Shown: piece by piece, positions 33,878 through 40,925 of the stretch
Layout of the letters: the number at the start of each line of letters is the position of its first letter
Numbering within the stretch: the stretch's first letter is position 1
NCBI GenBank assembly: GCA_002773135.1
Contig: PFCB01000030.1
Coordinates: 1-41,265, forward strand
DNA: 41,265 bases
DNA from: Candidatus Magasanikbacteria bacterium CG10_big_fil_rev_8_21_14_0_10_47_10
Lineage (GTDB): Bacteria > Patescibacteriota > Patescibacteriia > Magasanikbacterales > UBA922
Direction of reading: 5' to 3'
Position numbers and translations under genes: made by a program
The notes under the pieces: generated by a model
Database searches by the model: none
Seen by the model: only the letters and a program-made list of their open reading frames with translations
What the model was told of the DNA's origin: nothing

Positions 33878-35293
33878 CTATATAACACGGACAACCACCG
33901 GTGCCACCATACCCATAGTGCAAGAAATTTTATATGTCCCTTTTTTTGGTTTGCCCAAGTCTATGGTGTTCATGCCCGGGGTCAATGCAACAGACCCAGG
34001 AATAAGCCCACGTGATGCCATATACAGGCCGCATCCCACCATCCCCTGATTATCCACAAGCAATGTGGTAGGGATCCCGGATTGAATGCTTGCCCCGCTT
34101 GTCAGGGTATATTCAAATCCTTTCGCGGTAATGCTAAGAATCTGCGTTCCCTTTGGGGAGTCTGGTGATTTCGAAACTGCCGCGCGAGATTCGGTGTTCC
34201 CTCGAGCCAACACGTCACTGACACTTGGCCACCCCAGCACATTGAACTGCGCGTTTGTGTTATACAGTGCAAACAACACAAGAACCACACCGGCGTAAAA
34301 AGAAAACATCCTTTTTCGTTTGGGTTGTTCTGTTCCTTTAATGCTTGCCAATCCAATCAAAAATAATGGAATGGCTGTCCCCAACACAAACAGGATCATC
34401 ATACTTGCACCACGAGCCGCGCTACCACTTGACAGGGCGATGGCTTCTGCCGCCAACGTAAACCCGCATGGCAGCAATATGGTGCCGGCACCAACAGCAA
34501 AGGGCATGTGCCTATGGAGGGCATGGTCGGAGACACTAATGCGACGAGTGATACTTTTTGGCAGTCGAATTTGAAATCGTTCTGCCCACTCGACACCTGC
34601 CATTTGTAATCCAATCAACAGCATTATAAGCGACACGCTCATGGTTACTATGGCATAAAATATAGCAGAATCAAACGAGAATATCTGACCAATACCACCC
34701 AATATCGCGCCAAACACTGCGTACGAAAACAAACGCCCACCGTGAAAATACAGGTGCGGAACCAATTTTACGGGGAGCGATGCCTCTTTTGGTAAAGCCT
34801 CATTCCACGCTTTTGTCATGGAAAGCAGCACCCCTCCCACCAAAGCGGCACAACTTGAGAGCCCCGCCACCACGCCAAACACAAAAAACAATCCAAGCGC
34901 GGAGCTGTTTCCAAGATTGACATATTGAGACAACCCCAGCCGTGACACCAACCACAGCACAGCAATAACAATGGCCACCCGACCAAGCATATGAAATCGA
35001 CGCGAAAGCTCCCGCCTGTCCAGCTGAATGCCTTGCTTGCCTTCGACAACATACAATAATGGCTCTCGCTTTTTTCGTATTGGTGTTCTGCCAAAGGTAT
35101 ACCCGTCTTCTTTAAACCAAGCATTCAGTTGATCAACCGACGGTACCCAATTTTTGCCAATAATCGTGACCGTCTTATTTCCTATGGACGCATCCGCGGC
35201 CGTCACGCCTTTTTCTTCCAATATCCGCTGCTCAATCAAAAGCTCGCACGACGCGCAATGCATGCCATCGATACAATAGGTTACTTGTTTCAT
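33878..35293 (-). CDS. HMA - TauE/SafE-like membrane - cupredoxin-like fusion
   Basis: HMA GMHCASCELLIEQ; TM core FGVVAGLSSCAALVGGVLLS...PFAVGAGTILLPCGFTLAAEAIAL; C-terminal beta domain with GMVGCGLYM and YKISCTMGM. Confidence 0.82.
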   Translation of the reverse strand: MKQVTYCIDGMHCASCELLIEQRILEEKGVTAADASIGNKTVTIIGKNWVPSVDQLNAWFKEDGYTFGRTPIRKKREPLLYVVEGKQGIQLDRRELSRRFHMLGRVAIVIAVLWLVSRLGLSQYVNLGNSSALGLFFVFGVVAGLSSCAALVGGVLLSMTKAWNEALPKEASLPVKLVPHLYFHGGRLFSYAVFGAILGGIGQIFSFDSAIFYAIVTMSVSLIMLLIGLQMAGVEWAERFQIRLPKSITRRISVSDHALHRHMPFAVGAGTILLPCGFTLAAEAIALSSGSAARGASMMILFVLGTAIPLFLIGLASIKGTEQPKRKRMFSFYAGVVLVLFALYNTNAQFNVLGWPSVSDVLARGNTESRAAVSKSPDSPKGTQILSITAKGFEYTLTSGASIQSGIPTTLLVDNQGMVGCGLYMASRGLIPGSVALTPGMNTIDLGKPKKGTYKISCTMGMVAPVVVRVI

Positions 35294-35294
35294 A

Positions 35295-37670
35295 CTATGA
35301 TCGGTATTTGATTCGAATACTGTTGAGCACCACCGAGACAGAACTGAGCGCCATGGCCGCGCTGGCGACAATAGGTGAGAGTAGCAGCCCGAATGCCGGA
35401 TACAACAGTCCGGCGGCAAGAGGGACAGCAATGATGTTATATCCAAAGGCCCAAAACAAATTTTGCTTGATAATAGTCAGCGTGCGCTTGGATATTTTGA
35501 CTGTTTCAATAACCTTATCCAGTGTCCCTTTTACCAAAACAATATCCCCGGCCTCTATGGCGACGTCGGTTCCCGTCCCCATGGCAATGCCGATATCGGC
35601 CTGTGCCAAAGCCGGCGCGTCATTGATGCCATCACCCACCATCGCCACAATGCCATCTGTTCTTTTCTGAAGTTCTTCCAGGTTTCGCGCCTTGTCTTGC
35701 GGCAACACGTCAGCCATGATTTCATCTATCCCCAATTGTTTGGCAATGGCATTGGCCGTTGCGCTGTTATCCCCTGTCATCATCACCACGCGAATCCCCA
35801 GCCCGCGCAGTGCCTGAATGGCTTCTTTTGACTCGTTTTTTATTGTGTCAGCAAGCGCAAAGACTGCTACATGCGCTCCATCAACACTCATGTAAATCGG
35901 TGTTTGCCCTTTTTGAACGAATTCATCCGCTCGTTTCTTCAGATCCTCGCTCAAAGAAATATCGTGTTCACTCATGAGCCGAGCGTTTCCGATCAATACC
36001 TTTTTACCGCCGGCCACACCGGAGACACCACGGCCTTCCACTGCCAAAAAATCCTTAACAGGCAGGCCTTTGTCACCACTTCCCTTAGATGCCGCATGCT
36101 TCTCAATCGCATCCGAGAGTGGATGCTCGGACAAATGCTCAAGCGCGTATGCCATGCCAAGCAGCGTGTTCGCTTCCTTCTCATCTGTGTACGCAGAGCC
36201 GACCACTTCCGGCTTGCCTTGTGTCAATGTTCCGGTTTTGTCAAACACAATCGCTTTTATTTTATGCGCGCGCTCCAATGCTTCCGCGTCCTTTATCAAA
36301 ATACCATGACGCGCGGCCTTGCCGGTTCCCACCATGACGGCCGTGGGCGTTGCCAACCCCAACGCGCATGGGCAAGCGATAATAAGCACGGTTGTAGCTA
36401 TGTACACGGCCAACTGGAGCATGCCGGTATCTACAGCGACAAGACCAAGCGACGGGGCGGCATACAACCAAAACAAAAACGCAAGCGCGGCAATCGCAAT
36501 CACAATCGGGACAAACACACCGGACACTTGATCCGCAAGCTTTTGAATCGGCGCAGTGCTCCCCTGCGCTTCCTGCACCATTTTTATGATCTGTGAAAGC
36601 ATGGTCTCACTGCCCACATGCTCTGCGCGAAACCGAAACGCGCTCGTTTTATTGATAGTCGCGCCAACCACCGCGTCTCCGACTTTTTTTTCCGAAGGAA
36701 TAGACTCGCCCGTCACCATGGATTCATCAATCGTACTGGCACCCTCTATAATGACACCATCCACCGGCACCTTTTCACCCGGACGAACCAATATAGTGTC
36801 GCCTTTCACCACGTCTTCAATCGGTACCTTCATTTCTTTTCCATCACGAATGACTGTTGCTTCTTTTGCCTGCAGCTCAAGCAGTTTCTTTATAGCCTCG
36901 CCCGCCTGTCCCTTTGCCCTGGCTTCAAGCAGACGGCCAAGCAAAATGAAAAACGTAATAAAAACGGCTGCTTCAAAAAAAGTGTCACCGCCATGTTCCC
37001 CCAAAAGTCCCGGCGCAAAAGTGACAATGCTTGAAAAAAACCAGGCGGTAAAGGTGCCAAGTGCGATCAAGGTGTCCATGTTCGCGCTCTTTACCTTCAG
37101 CGCGCGCCACGCGCTGACGAAAATTTGTGATCCGCCCCAAAACAAAATCGGAGTTGTCAGCAAAAATTGCATCAAAAACAACGTACTGAGTGCGAAACCG
37201 CCGGAAAAAAGTACAGTGCCAAACGCATCCGATATATCTTTGCCCGCAAGATCCAGTATCATGAGCGCCAAAAAAGGCAACGCCCCAATCCCCACAAACA
37301 GTACCGTCTTTTTCAACTTTTGATATTGTTCTTTTTTGAGCATGGATGCGTGGTCGTGGTGTCCTTTTTTCATCCCGCCTTTCATGCCGGCCATATCATG
37401 CTGATCTGTCTGCATTTTTTTTGCCTCCGGCATTGATGCTACCACCAACCCGGCATCACTCATCACCATGGTGTATCCACCGGCTTTTTTGACCGCGGCG
37501 GCAATTCCCTCCAATGTGTCTACCGATCCGTCGTACTCCACAGTCATGACTTCGGTACCGTAATTCACGTTCACACTCTGTACACCATCAAGTTTCCCAA
37601 CCATGCGCTCTATATTTTTTTTGCACGATGCGCAGTGCATGCCGACTATTGGATATAGTTCTTTTTTCAT
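35295..37670 (-). CDS. copA: Copper-type P1B ATPase
   Basis: [17 protein letters not shown]; Met/His-rich linker; [58 protein letters not shown]. Confidence 0.93.
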
Positions 37671-38062: not shown

Positions 38063-38518
38063 TTATATTACTTTTTTTAACCATGTTATTTTTTTAAGCC
38101 GTACATCCGCGCCACACACATGACCCGATTTGGTCGCGTAAAGAACCAACAGGGCGGCTGCATAAATAACATGCTCGTCAACAATGTAGCCATGCGCGCC
38201 GACCGTCGGGAAATCGAGAATAGGAAGATAGTACAGCACCATGAGCACGACTCCAAGCACGCTGGAGACACGGACAAACGCACCGACGATAAGCGAAACA
38301 CCAATCAGTGTCAGCCCCCATTCGTTGAGTACGTTTACCACATCTATGACGCCGGGCGTGGTGAACCATGAATACAACCCACCAAATGTCTTGGCTGCTG
38401 ATATGTACGGCGCGGCGCTCCACGCGGGGTTGACCAATTTGGTGATGCCTGCATAGAAAAAAAGCCAGCCCAATGCCATACGAAGAGCGACAATGTAGAT
38501 GCGCGCCTGTTTATCCAT
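38063..38518 (-). CDS. DoxX family membrane protein
   Basis: LRMALGWLFFYAGITKLVNPAWSAAPYI...WGLTLIGVSLIVGAFVRVSSVLGVVLMVLYYL. Confidence 0.85.
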   Translation of the reverse strand: MDKQARIYIVALRMALGWLFFYAGITKLVNPAWSAAPYISAAKTFGGLYSWFTTPGVIDVVNVLNEWGLTLIGVSLIVGAFVRVSSVLGVVLMVLYYLPILDFPTVGAHGYIVDEHVIYAAALLVLYATKSGHVCGADVRLKKITWLKKVI

Positions 38519-38573: not shown

Positions 38574-39509
38574 CTATGCCCCGCTGTCAGGAGCAACCGT
38601 TTTACCTATTTCCAGGTCTTTATAGGTAGCGCCAACTCGGGCGGGATCCCGAAAGACAAAGACCCCGTCTTGTTCAACCGTCCCGACCTGCCCCCATACT
38701 TGTTCCAGCGCGCTATACGCACTCGCTTGCGACGAAAGGAGCAGAGCCGGGACGCGTGTCATTGTGTACTTCTCAACCAATTCCTTTCCACGCGCGTCTG
38801 ATACATCAACAATATCCTCGGACACAATCACCACGCCAAACTGTTGCAGTATGGGTCGCATGATTTTTTGCACATCATAACACTCTATGCAGTCTTTATC
38901 CGTTAGATACGTGGCTCCCACAAGTCCTGTCACTTCTGTTGATTGAGCATCCATGTACGGAGGCTGCTCCTGTTCCCAAAGAAGTGTGTTCTCTCCAACC
39001 GGGCGCGCCCCCTGCTCAAGCGCGCGAGCAAGCCGGTCTTTTATTTTCTCATCCGTCACAAATACCAGCGCCGGAAGCTTTCTGATACCAAATTTCTCAA
39101 TGACAGTCTTCCCTTCGGTACTGTCGGCGGAAACCACCCGATCGTCGAGCAGTTCGATATTTTGAGAAGACACCATCTTTTTTTGAGCGGACAAATCTCC
39201 GCACACCGGACAGTTTGATGGAAGAACAAGTGTCAGTGTTCCTTCCTGCGGCCGTACCAACTCAACCGCGTCACTCAGCTTGCTGTTTACGGTAACCGTA
39301 AAGAAGGTCATTGCCGCTATATTGGCCACAAGCACGACCACAAGAATCACCCACAGCGCCTTGATTGGATTTTTTTTAGCAAGAGCGGAAAACCGACTGT
39401 TTTTTTGAACCTGTTCTCCATGATCTTTACCACAACAATCATCCGAAACCGATTCTCTCATCTCCTCGTCGGCATCAATGTGATTCATTTCTTTTTCTTC
39501 TGTTTTCAT
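38574..39509 (-). CDS. Membrane-anchored tandem thioredoxin-fold protein (CPVC and CIEC)
   Basis: N-terminal DDCCGKDHGE, one TM, then NCPVCGD...RKLPALVF and DCIECYD...TRVPALLL (two CxxC + cis-Pro units). Confidence 0.65.
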   Translation of the reverse strand: MKTEEKEMNHIDADEEMRESVSDDCCGKDHGEQVQKNSRFSALAKKNPIKALWVILVVVLVANIAAMTFFTVTVNSKLSDAVELVRPQEGTLTLVLPSNCPVCGDLSAQKKMVSSQNIELLDDRVVSADSTEGKTVIEKFGIRKLPALVFVTDEKIKDRLARALEQGARPVGENTLLWEQEQPPYMDAQSTEVTGLVGATYLTDKDCIECYDVQKIMRPILQQFGVVIVSEDIVDVSDARGKELVEKYTMTRVPALLLSSQASAYSALEQVWGQVGTVEQDGVFVFRDPARVGATYKDLEIGKTVAPDSGA

Positions 39510-39541: not shown

Positions 39542-39727
39542 TTAGCAGCCGCCAACCATGGCCGGAGAGGATCCATCATCCGTAAAACTGACAGTCGCGG
39601 GAGAACCACCCACCCCAATTTGCGCGTCTTCCAATTGACGGCTCATGCCGGCAAGCGCCGCTGTCTGATACGACAAGACACCAATAGTGATTGCCAGCAT
39701 AATTGTTAGGTTTTTTTGTGAAAACAT
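39542..39727 (-). CDS. 61-aa secreted/anchored peptide ending in MVGGC
   Basis: MFSQKNLTIMLAITIGVLSYQTAALAGMSRQLEDAQIGVGGSPATVSFTDDGSSPAMVGGC*; signal-like N-terminus, single Cys at the C-terminus. Confidence 0.6.
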   Translation of the reverse strand: MFSQKNLTIMLAITIGVLSYQTAALAGMSRQLEDAQIGVGGSPATVSFTDDGSSPAMVGGC

Positions 39728-39767
39728 ACAAGAAATAATTATGAAACTCGGTAAAAATAAATATCTT

Positions 39768-40925
39768 TTAACATCCCCCCACCATACCGGGATTTTCTTC
39801 CGGCTCAAACCCGGACGTCTTGGCTTTTTTTTGCAAATCCGTCAATTCAGACTCTGTCAAATTCATGGTTAAATATTTAATATCCGGCTTGAATTCAGCA
39901 CGGTCACCCGCAAGCGAACTTGCCATGCGCTGCTGTAGCTGTACGGGAAAGTACAGCCCCTTCTGCCGGACAATCTCGTACGCGATCTGTGCGTCCGTCA
40001 TTTCAGGATATGTCCGTATAAGATACGCGGCTGTTCCGCGCATCGCAATTGAATGAGCGCAACCACAGGTTGGCGATCCGTCTTCTCGTACTAAAGTCGT
40101 AACACCGCAACAAAACTCACATGTCACATACGGCTCAGTGCCTATTTTAATGTACCGCTTCATTTCCTCTTCACTCAGCTGAATTGGATTTGATCCCTGC
40201 ATTGGAGCCATAATGCCGAGTTTTCGAATGGACGCATTGATCGCGTTCAAATTCGACATATCAAGACCAAGCTCGCTTCCGTAAAATGGAAGCGTTGTTG
40301 GGGTAACAAGCGCGGCAATATCCCGCGCAAATTCTCCTGTAAGGACGACACCGTCAGCCATATCCATGCCGATCATTTTTTTCCCCACCTGCATGGCAAG
40401 CGCCTGATTGGACACAAACAAAATACCAACGACGATAACCGCCACTTTCTGAAATATCAGATGTCCACTTTTGGTGGGCACGTCTTTTGGTTCAAATCGA
40501 CGCGCCAGTAACGCGATACCCGCAATAAGAACGACAAACGCTATCACACGCATCCACCAAAAATATGGTGAAAAGGCCATCACCGTTGCCGACAGGCCAA
40601 AATACGTGAGAAAGAATACAGGGCACACAGGACAAAGCATGGTAAAAAACGCAAGCAGTCCTGACCCGCCACCAACCGCGCACGACGCGGCTTTACCCTT
40701 TCGCGCAAGCGCAAAAAGTGACACACCAAATCCAAAGGCAACCGCAAACGACCCCGCAAACAGCAGGTCGAACGTGGTGACCTCATTCATATAGGGGATG
40801 CGGTACCCGATAATCGGAATCGTCCACAGACCCAAAAGCAATGTCTCAATGGCAAAGACAAGAAGACCACCGCCAATGAACCAAAGCCAAAACGTTTCCG
40901 TTTTTAACAGTGATACTGTTTTCAT
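39768..40925 (-). CDS. Cys-rich multi-TM protein ending in MVGGC
   Basis: TM CPVCP; soluble VTCEFCCG...PTCGCAHSIAMRG; C-terminus NPGMVGGC*. Confidence 0.75.
   Translation of the reverse strand: MKTVSLLKTETFWLWFIGGGLLVFAIETLLLGLWTIPIIGYRIPYMNEVTTFDLLFAGSFAVAFGFGVSLFALARKGKAASCAVGGGSGLLAFFTMLCPVCPVFFLTYFGLSATVMAFSPYFWWMRVIAFVVLIAGIALLARRFEPKDVPTKSGHLIFQKVAVIVVGILFVSNQALAMQVGKKMIGMDMADGVVLTGEFARDIAALVTPTTLPFYGSELGLDMSNLNAINASIRKLGIMAPMQGSNPIQLSEEEMKRYIKIGTEPYVTCEFCCGVTTLVREDGSPTCGCAHSIAMRGTAAYLIRTYPEMTDAQIAYEIVRQKGLYFPVQLQQRMASSLAGDRAEFKPDIKYLTMNLTESELTDLQKKAKTSGFEPEENPGMVGGC

Follow-up and report, generated by a model that had tools for sequence, protein, structure and literature searches.

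Two tagged proteins and their gene neighborhood

The window (the whole stretch of DNA that was analyzed, 41,265 nucleotides) encodes two adjacent and otherwise unrelated proteins, a small peptide and a larger envelope protein, that end in the same pentapeptide, MVGGC (Table 1). The initial annotation had pointed out this identity, and re-reading of both ORF ends bore it out; comparison of the codons confirmed that all four degenerate third positions differ between the two tags, and the terminal Cys is indeed the sole Cys in the sequence of the small peptide. The small protein had also been described as signal-peptide-like, which did not stand: in the alignment of its family (A2), homologs have hydrophilic extensions of up to ~50 aa N-terminal to the hydrophobic stretch, and no signal-peptidase site is conserved. 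These long hydrophilic N-termini and the lack of a common cleavage site mark the hydrophobic stretch as a membrane anchor rather than a cleaved signal; the C-terminal tail is probably extracytoplasmic. The 61-aa reading of the small ORF is supported by the homologs, which start at the ATG at 39727. Some of the tagged peptides have Cys/His-rich cytoplasmic N-termini, e.g. HHDHCANC and MSCCNKG (L009:2168-2479 and L078:6522-6827).

Table 1. Tagged gene pair of the window, sequence motifs of the encoded proteins, and neighboring genes
Feature	Position	Strand	Details
385-aa envelope protein	39768..40925	-	multi-TM part with CPVC, Cys/His domain, tail; ends in NPGMVGGC
CPVC in TM helix, N-terminal part of large protein	40623..40634	-	from sequence
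CEFCC motif, large protein	40107..40121	-	three Cys invariant in A1
CGCAHS motif, large protein	40050..40067	-	C, C, H invariant in A1
MVGGC tag with stop, large protein	39768..39785	-	ATG GTG GGG GGA TGT TAA
61-aa single-TM peptide	39542..39727	-	ends in PAMVGGC; 14 homologs aligned (A2)
MVGGC tag with stop, small peptide	39542..39559	-	ATG GTT GGC GGC TGC TAA
Tandem thioredoxin-fold membrane protein, 311 aa	38574..39509	-	Pfam HyaE above cut-off; A3 alignment
CPVC, active-site-like, Trx domain 1	39201..39212	-	A3 alignment
CIEC, active-site-like, Trx domain 2	38880..38891	-	A3 alignment
DoxX-family membrane protein, window gene cluster	38063..38515	-	
CopA-type copper-translocating P-type ATPase, N-terminal GMHCASC domain	35295..37670	-	TIGR01511, 622 bits vs cut-off 397
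HMA domain, DsbD_2 membrane domain and C-terminal extension	33878..35446	-	

Some homologs of the large protein cover its N-terminal CPVC part only. The Cys/His domain was defined by the last 180 residues of the large protein (alignment A1), and its invariant positions are CxxCC, CxCxH and an Arg, a Glu and a Pro; the His-bearing motif occurs as CGCAHS, CACAHS, CSCAHS, CGCAHA and CGCRHA. The large protein matches no Pfam or NCBIfam family above the cut-off, and neither tagged family was found in these two collections. An assignment to CopD (PF05425) was rejected at 16.8 bits against a cut-off of 32.1. PCYCGC proteins (PF13798), which are likewise extracytoplasmic, Cys/His-rich and of unknown function, were rejected because the window protein does not match the Pfam model; that model matched none of 97 genomes of the phylum, and the control genomes were silent too. 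A PDB search with the Cys/His domain, by sequence and by fold, returned no relative; its fold was modeled with only moderate confidence (mean pLDDT 66), and the tail is not resolved in the model.

A gap of 32 bases separates the gene of the tagged peptide from the tandem thioredoxin gene downstream. The CxxC pair and the prolines of each Trx domain are invariant in A3, and the predicted fold matches the Pyrococcus furiosus protein disulfide oxidoreductase (1a8l, E 1.3e-6), as well as QSOX and PDI. The protein thus has the makeup of a tandem thioredoxin or protein disulfide oxidoreductase, two Trx folds each with a CxxC and a conserved proline; the overall TM-score to 1a8l is low because the domain packing is uncertain. 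The thioredoxins of related loci are tandem or triple and membrane-anchored, and are separated from the peptide gene by 20 to ~100 bases. A conserved CC pair, perhaps a cytoplasmic metal site, was also observed in the cytoplasmic N-terminus of the tandem thioredoxin (DDCCGKDHGE at 39420-39450 in the window; also in L061, L022, L023 and L063).

Conservation and distribution of the MVGGC tail

We scanned 384 Patescibacteria genomes for M[VIM]GGC followed by a stop, using the reversed pattern as a control. The pattern gave 25 matches versus 2 for the control, an enrichment over chance in related genomes on which the initial proposal depended. Twenty of the matches end ORFs of >60 aa, and all 20 fall into two families, those of the two window proteins: envelope proteins with a CxxCC...CxCxHS domain and single-TM peptides of 61-110 aa. 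The other five end frames of <25 aa and were rejected as chance. VGGC followed by a stop occurs three times in the genome of the window; two occurrences end ORFs of the two families, and the third (G000:C6:3582), which ends no ORF of at least 40 aa, was also attributed to chance. A literature search for the MVGGC motif gave no paper on it.

The 24 tags compared are encoded by 21 different codon strings and read MVGGC in 23 cases and MIGGC (V to I) in one, in agreement with the earlier suggestion of constraint at the protein level rather than recent duplication. The tag is found in both proteins across other genera and families, and the linkers that precede it diverge; a situation in which the homologs of both proteins lack it was not seen. 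Within the small-peptide family (A2, 14 homologs), conservation is limited to L11, Q21 and MVGGC. Identity reaches 100% in the five tag columns and stays <60% in most columns ahead of them, in an alignment whose members were collected partly via the tag itself. Two further peptides were found via neighboring genes, independently of the pattern, and end in KQVGGC (G327) and QVGGCG (G068), which marks V-G-G-C as the firmer core of the tag. QVGGC without the stop anchor was tried as a pattern and set aside, since its matches are near background and only the G068 peptide is truly C-terminal.

The adjacency of the two genes would agree with a chance resemblance, or with a 3' end that was recently duplicated or transferred. 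These explanations are already refuted by the codon saturation and by the persistence of the tag in both proteins across several families of the phylum, and we assign them a negligible probability. The C-terminal place of the tag, the flexible linker ahead of it and the membrane location of its carriers would also suit a signal by which a general enzyme recognizes proteins for sorting, lipidation or proteolytic processing. Such a signal is very unlikely, given that the tag is found on two proteins in the genome of the window and in two families in 384 genomes, rather than on many unrelated exported proteins, and that both carriers are membrane-anchored already. The general processing or attachment signal put forward in the initial annotation therefore has to be abandoned, the tag having no proteome-wide spread.

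A profile search detected the Cys/His domain in 15 of the 384 genomes. All 15 encode a protein ending in [MQ][VI]GGC at the locus (the 15th, ending in KQVGGC, was found by neighborhood), and no genome without the domain has a real pattern-tagged protein; the corresponding Fisher p of ~1e-24 is partly trivial, as in eight genomes the tag belongs to the domain protein itself. One domain gene (L054:7816-8274, in G303) lacks the cysteine core, owing to an internal deletion or an assembly error, and the adjoining tagged-peptide gene is intact. The tandem-thioredoxin profile also matches 15 of the 384 genomes; it co-occurs with 11 of the 12 pattern-tagged peptides (p 2.8e-17), and the 11 genomes that share the two genes all have them side by side. 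Homologs of the tandem thioredoxin in G336 and G353 are located elsewhere and have no tailed peptide, thus the thioredoxin alone does not imply the tag. Neither is it obligatory, since G112 and G121 possess a cis tail with neither tandem thioredoxin nor small peptide. The genome samples were drawn evenly within the phylum, which makes the family counts estimates; other phyla were covered by plasmid records only.

The Cys tail is exchangeable between proteins

The Cys tail can be carried by the large protein, by a separate small membrane peptide, or by both. All tails have a single Cys on a variable Gly/Ser/Pro-rich linker. Seven genomes possess a domain protein without a Cys tail, and a tagged small peptide is encoded alongside in 7 of 7. 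Six of these tail-less proteins end in HGGAGxxGxHG, and one is degenerate. This common C-terminus (L050-L053, L055 and L078) is possibly a His-type tail instead.

A1 aligns (hhalign probability 96, E 4.5e-9) with a second family, which is marked by the signature RPCCGNSTxFPDCNHG and is present in 20 of 221 genomes. Its members end, in 22 of 23 cases, in a Gly/Ser/Ala-rich linker with a Cys at or near position -3 (e.g. GGGGCGA, GGSCGA). Upstream of the sole tail-less member (G068), a small single-TM peptide ending in QVGGCG is encoded; a tandem thioredoxin lies between the peptide and domain genes, and a metal P-type ATPase lies downstream. For this family ~1.5 kb of flank was inspected. Taking both families together, a tailed peptide is found next door in 8 of 8 tail-less proteins versus 6 of 30 tailed ones (p 6e-5, a value that overstates independence because the genomes are related). 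A DsbA-like membrane protein encoded in the module operon of two loci ends in AGGCGG (L056:7200-8030 and L057:8976-9806) and represents a third protein type with a Cys tail.

These tails also bear on the possibility that MVGGC with its free carboxylate is a short linear motif docking into a pocket of a common partner, such as the tandem thioredoxin or a chaperone, with the Cys chemistry being secondary. In its favor, a thiol would not require the near-invariance seen for Met, Val and the free C-terminus, and one pentapeptide occurs on two unrelated scaffolds. The RPCCGNSTxFPDCNHG family, however, keeps only the Gly-Cys part, with its Cys at -3, and the variants QVGGC and QVGGCG occur; both points argue for a deeper constraint on Cys and Gly, and we regard a docking tag as quite improbable. 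A thiol alone does not account for how strictly Met and Val are kept; a docking pocket would fit this, and so would a Cu(I) site assisted by Met.

The plasmid search gave no match for the window domain; the RPCCGNSTxFPDCNHG family has matches on Burkholderia and Paraburkholderia plasmids (WP_202821866.1, from a B. thailandensis plasmid, WP_027810704.1 and WP_028197075.1, all hypothetical proteins). The gene for one of these homologs immediately follows that of a heavy-metal P-type ATPase; cueR is ~7.5 kb away, and genes for DUF411, DsbD, TlpA and Sco lie close by. The second sits in a similar island. The third, from Paraburkholderia, is near further metal ATPases and merAB; thus another soft metal is possible. 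The plasmid proteins have a Cys-containing Ala/Ser-rich tail, retained as ASCG, and lie in islands with CueR, P-type ATPase and DUF411 genes. They differ from the tagged proteins in that MVGGC is absent, the tail Cys lies farther from the C-terminus in the Burkholderia forms, and the small tagged peptide was not seen. With these relatives in copper islands, the copper link rests on two phyla.

Copper context and a candidate envelope relay

Besides the CopA of the window, copper ATPases were recognized by sequence resemblance near the modules of L061, L063 and L101. CsoR-family (CsoR/RicR-like) regulators were assigned by Pfam in L058 and L060 and by resemblance in L059, and BlaI/CopY-type repressors with M56 peptidases by Pfam in L050 and by resemblance in L051 and L055-L057. 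A linked Cu(I) exporter and a copper-type regulator, as in copper operons, are thus represented by the window CopA, the CsoR-family regulators of L058 and L060, and the CueR in the island of the Burkholderia relative; the BlaI/M56 and CsoR-family regulators near the module can respond to other signals too. DUF411 (CopG-like) proteins are encoded in L061 (by Pfam) and L078 (by resemblance); a DUF411 protein of P. aeruginosa is copper-responsive (PMC6444534). DsbD- and DsbA-like genes are also close to the module. The clustering with tandem-thioredoxin and CopA genes envisaged in the initial annotation is therefore seen in related loci.

The conserved tail, its saturated codons, its cis/trans exchange, the structure of the module and its copper context are the observations on which our interpretation builds. 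We give about even chances to the proposal that MVGGC is the end of a flexible, membrane-tethered Cys arm by which Cu(I) or thiol equivalents travel between the Cys/His domain and the tandem thioredoxin. Three proteins would make up the module, namely a membrane protein that exposes its CxxCC...CxCxHS site outside the cytoplasm, a small peptide that spans the membrane once and has MVGGC at the tip of a disordered outer segment, and a tandem thioredoxin anchored in the membrane; CopA, CsoR- or CopY/BlaI-type regulators, or CopG-like DUF411 are usually encoded nearby. Placed singly on a Gly hinge, the Cys has no means of forming a disulfide of its own, hence it is proposed to be a mobile ligand or thiol acting on another site. 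On the most economical view, the tail Cys may visit the Cys/His site transiently, where it would complete or empty a site for Cu(I), and may also meet the CxxC of the tandem thioredoxin through a mixed disulfide or copper transfer. The arm would be built into the domain protein (in cis), supplied by the small peptide (in trans), or both. Cu(I) is the putative cargo, and the partner of the tail Cys and the direction of transfer are likewise putative. That these parts constitute a copper/thiol relay of the Patescibacteria envelope that has not been described before, with an interchangeable single-Cys arm that, fused to the domain or as a stand-alone peptide, serves the domain and the tandem thioredoxin, appears slightly less probable than the arm itself.

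The same module could instead be a pure redox system, in which the tail Cys resolves or shuttles thiols, forms mixed disulfides with the tandem thioredoxin so that the CxxCC/CxCxH site is reduced or oxidized, and carries no metal; the copper genes would then adjoin the module because copper oxidizes envelope thiols. The adjacency of peptide and tandem thioredoxin in all 11 shared genomes found by the pattern, the CxxC and prolines kept in both Trx domains, the fold shared with protein disulfide oxidoreductases, QSOX and PDI, and the nearby DsbD- and DsbA-like genes are consistent with it. Nevertheless, the cis-tailed proteins of G112 and G121 occur without this thioredoxin, and the adjoining CsoR/CopY-type regulators, CopA and CueR favor a metal, which makes a metal-free arm somewhat unlikely.

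For the proposed metal- or thiol-passing arm several analogies exist. In MerA and thioredoxin reductase, flexible C-terminal Cys or Sec tails hand metal or electrons to another site; these are Cys pairs or Cys-Sec on flavoenzymes, and the enzymes have no homology to the MVGGC proteins. SelK is a small single-pass membrane protein with a Gly-rich disordered segment and a near-terminal reactive chalcogen residue. SelS, another small protein that crosses the membrane once, likewise has a Gly-rich segment that is disordered, and its reactive chalcogen residue lies beside the C-terminus (PMC3628699). Both selenoproteins differ from the tagged peptides in using Sec for Cys, in residing in the eukaryotic ER and in having no copper operon, and they are an analogy only. 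Domain III of CCS, the copper chaperone for superoxide dismutase, is a short, mobile, thiol-bearing C-terminal tail with a role in the Cu(I) transfer and disulfide chemistry that occur on the partner (PMC6383938). It resembles the MVGGC arm in its way of working, without sequence relation: CCS is eukaryotic and soluble and has a CXC pair, always in cis, whereas the MVGGC arm has one Cys in an MVGG context, is membrane-tethered and can sit on a separate peptide. Accordingly, no tail has the CXC of a CCS-domain-III-like arm, all of them being single-Cys.

The proposed arm offers a function that can be tested for two families missing from Pfam and NCBIfam, whose bacterial hosts are hard to manipulate, and the idea can be tested via the related copper-island proteins of culturable Burkholderia. 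It presents a redox- or metal-active tail as an exchangeable cis/trans module and hints at how ultra-small bacteria with reduced genomes deal with copper outside the membrane. Past the end of the window (L062, G000:C26), the operon runs on upstream with a 5-TM HCPLCTAGAGA protein and more Cys-rich membrane proteins, and this locus likely holds a copy of the DUF411 gene of L061.
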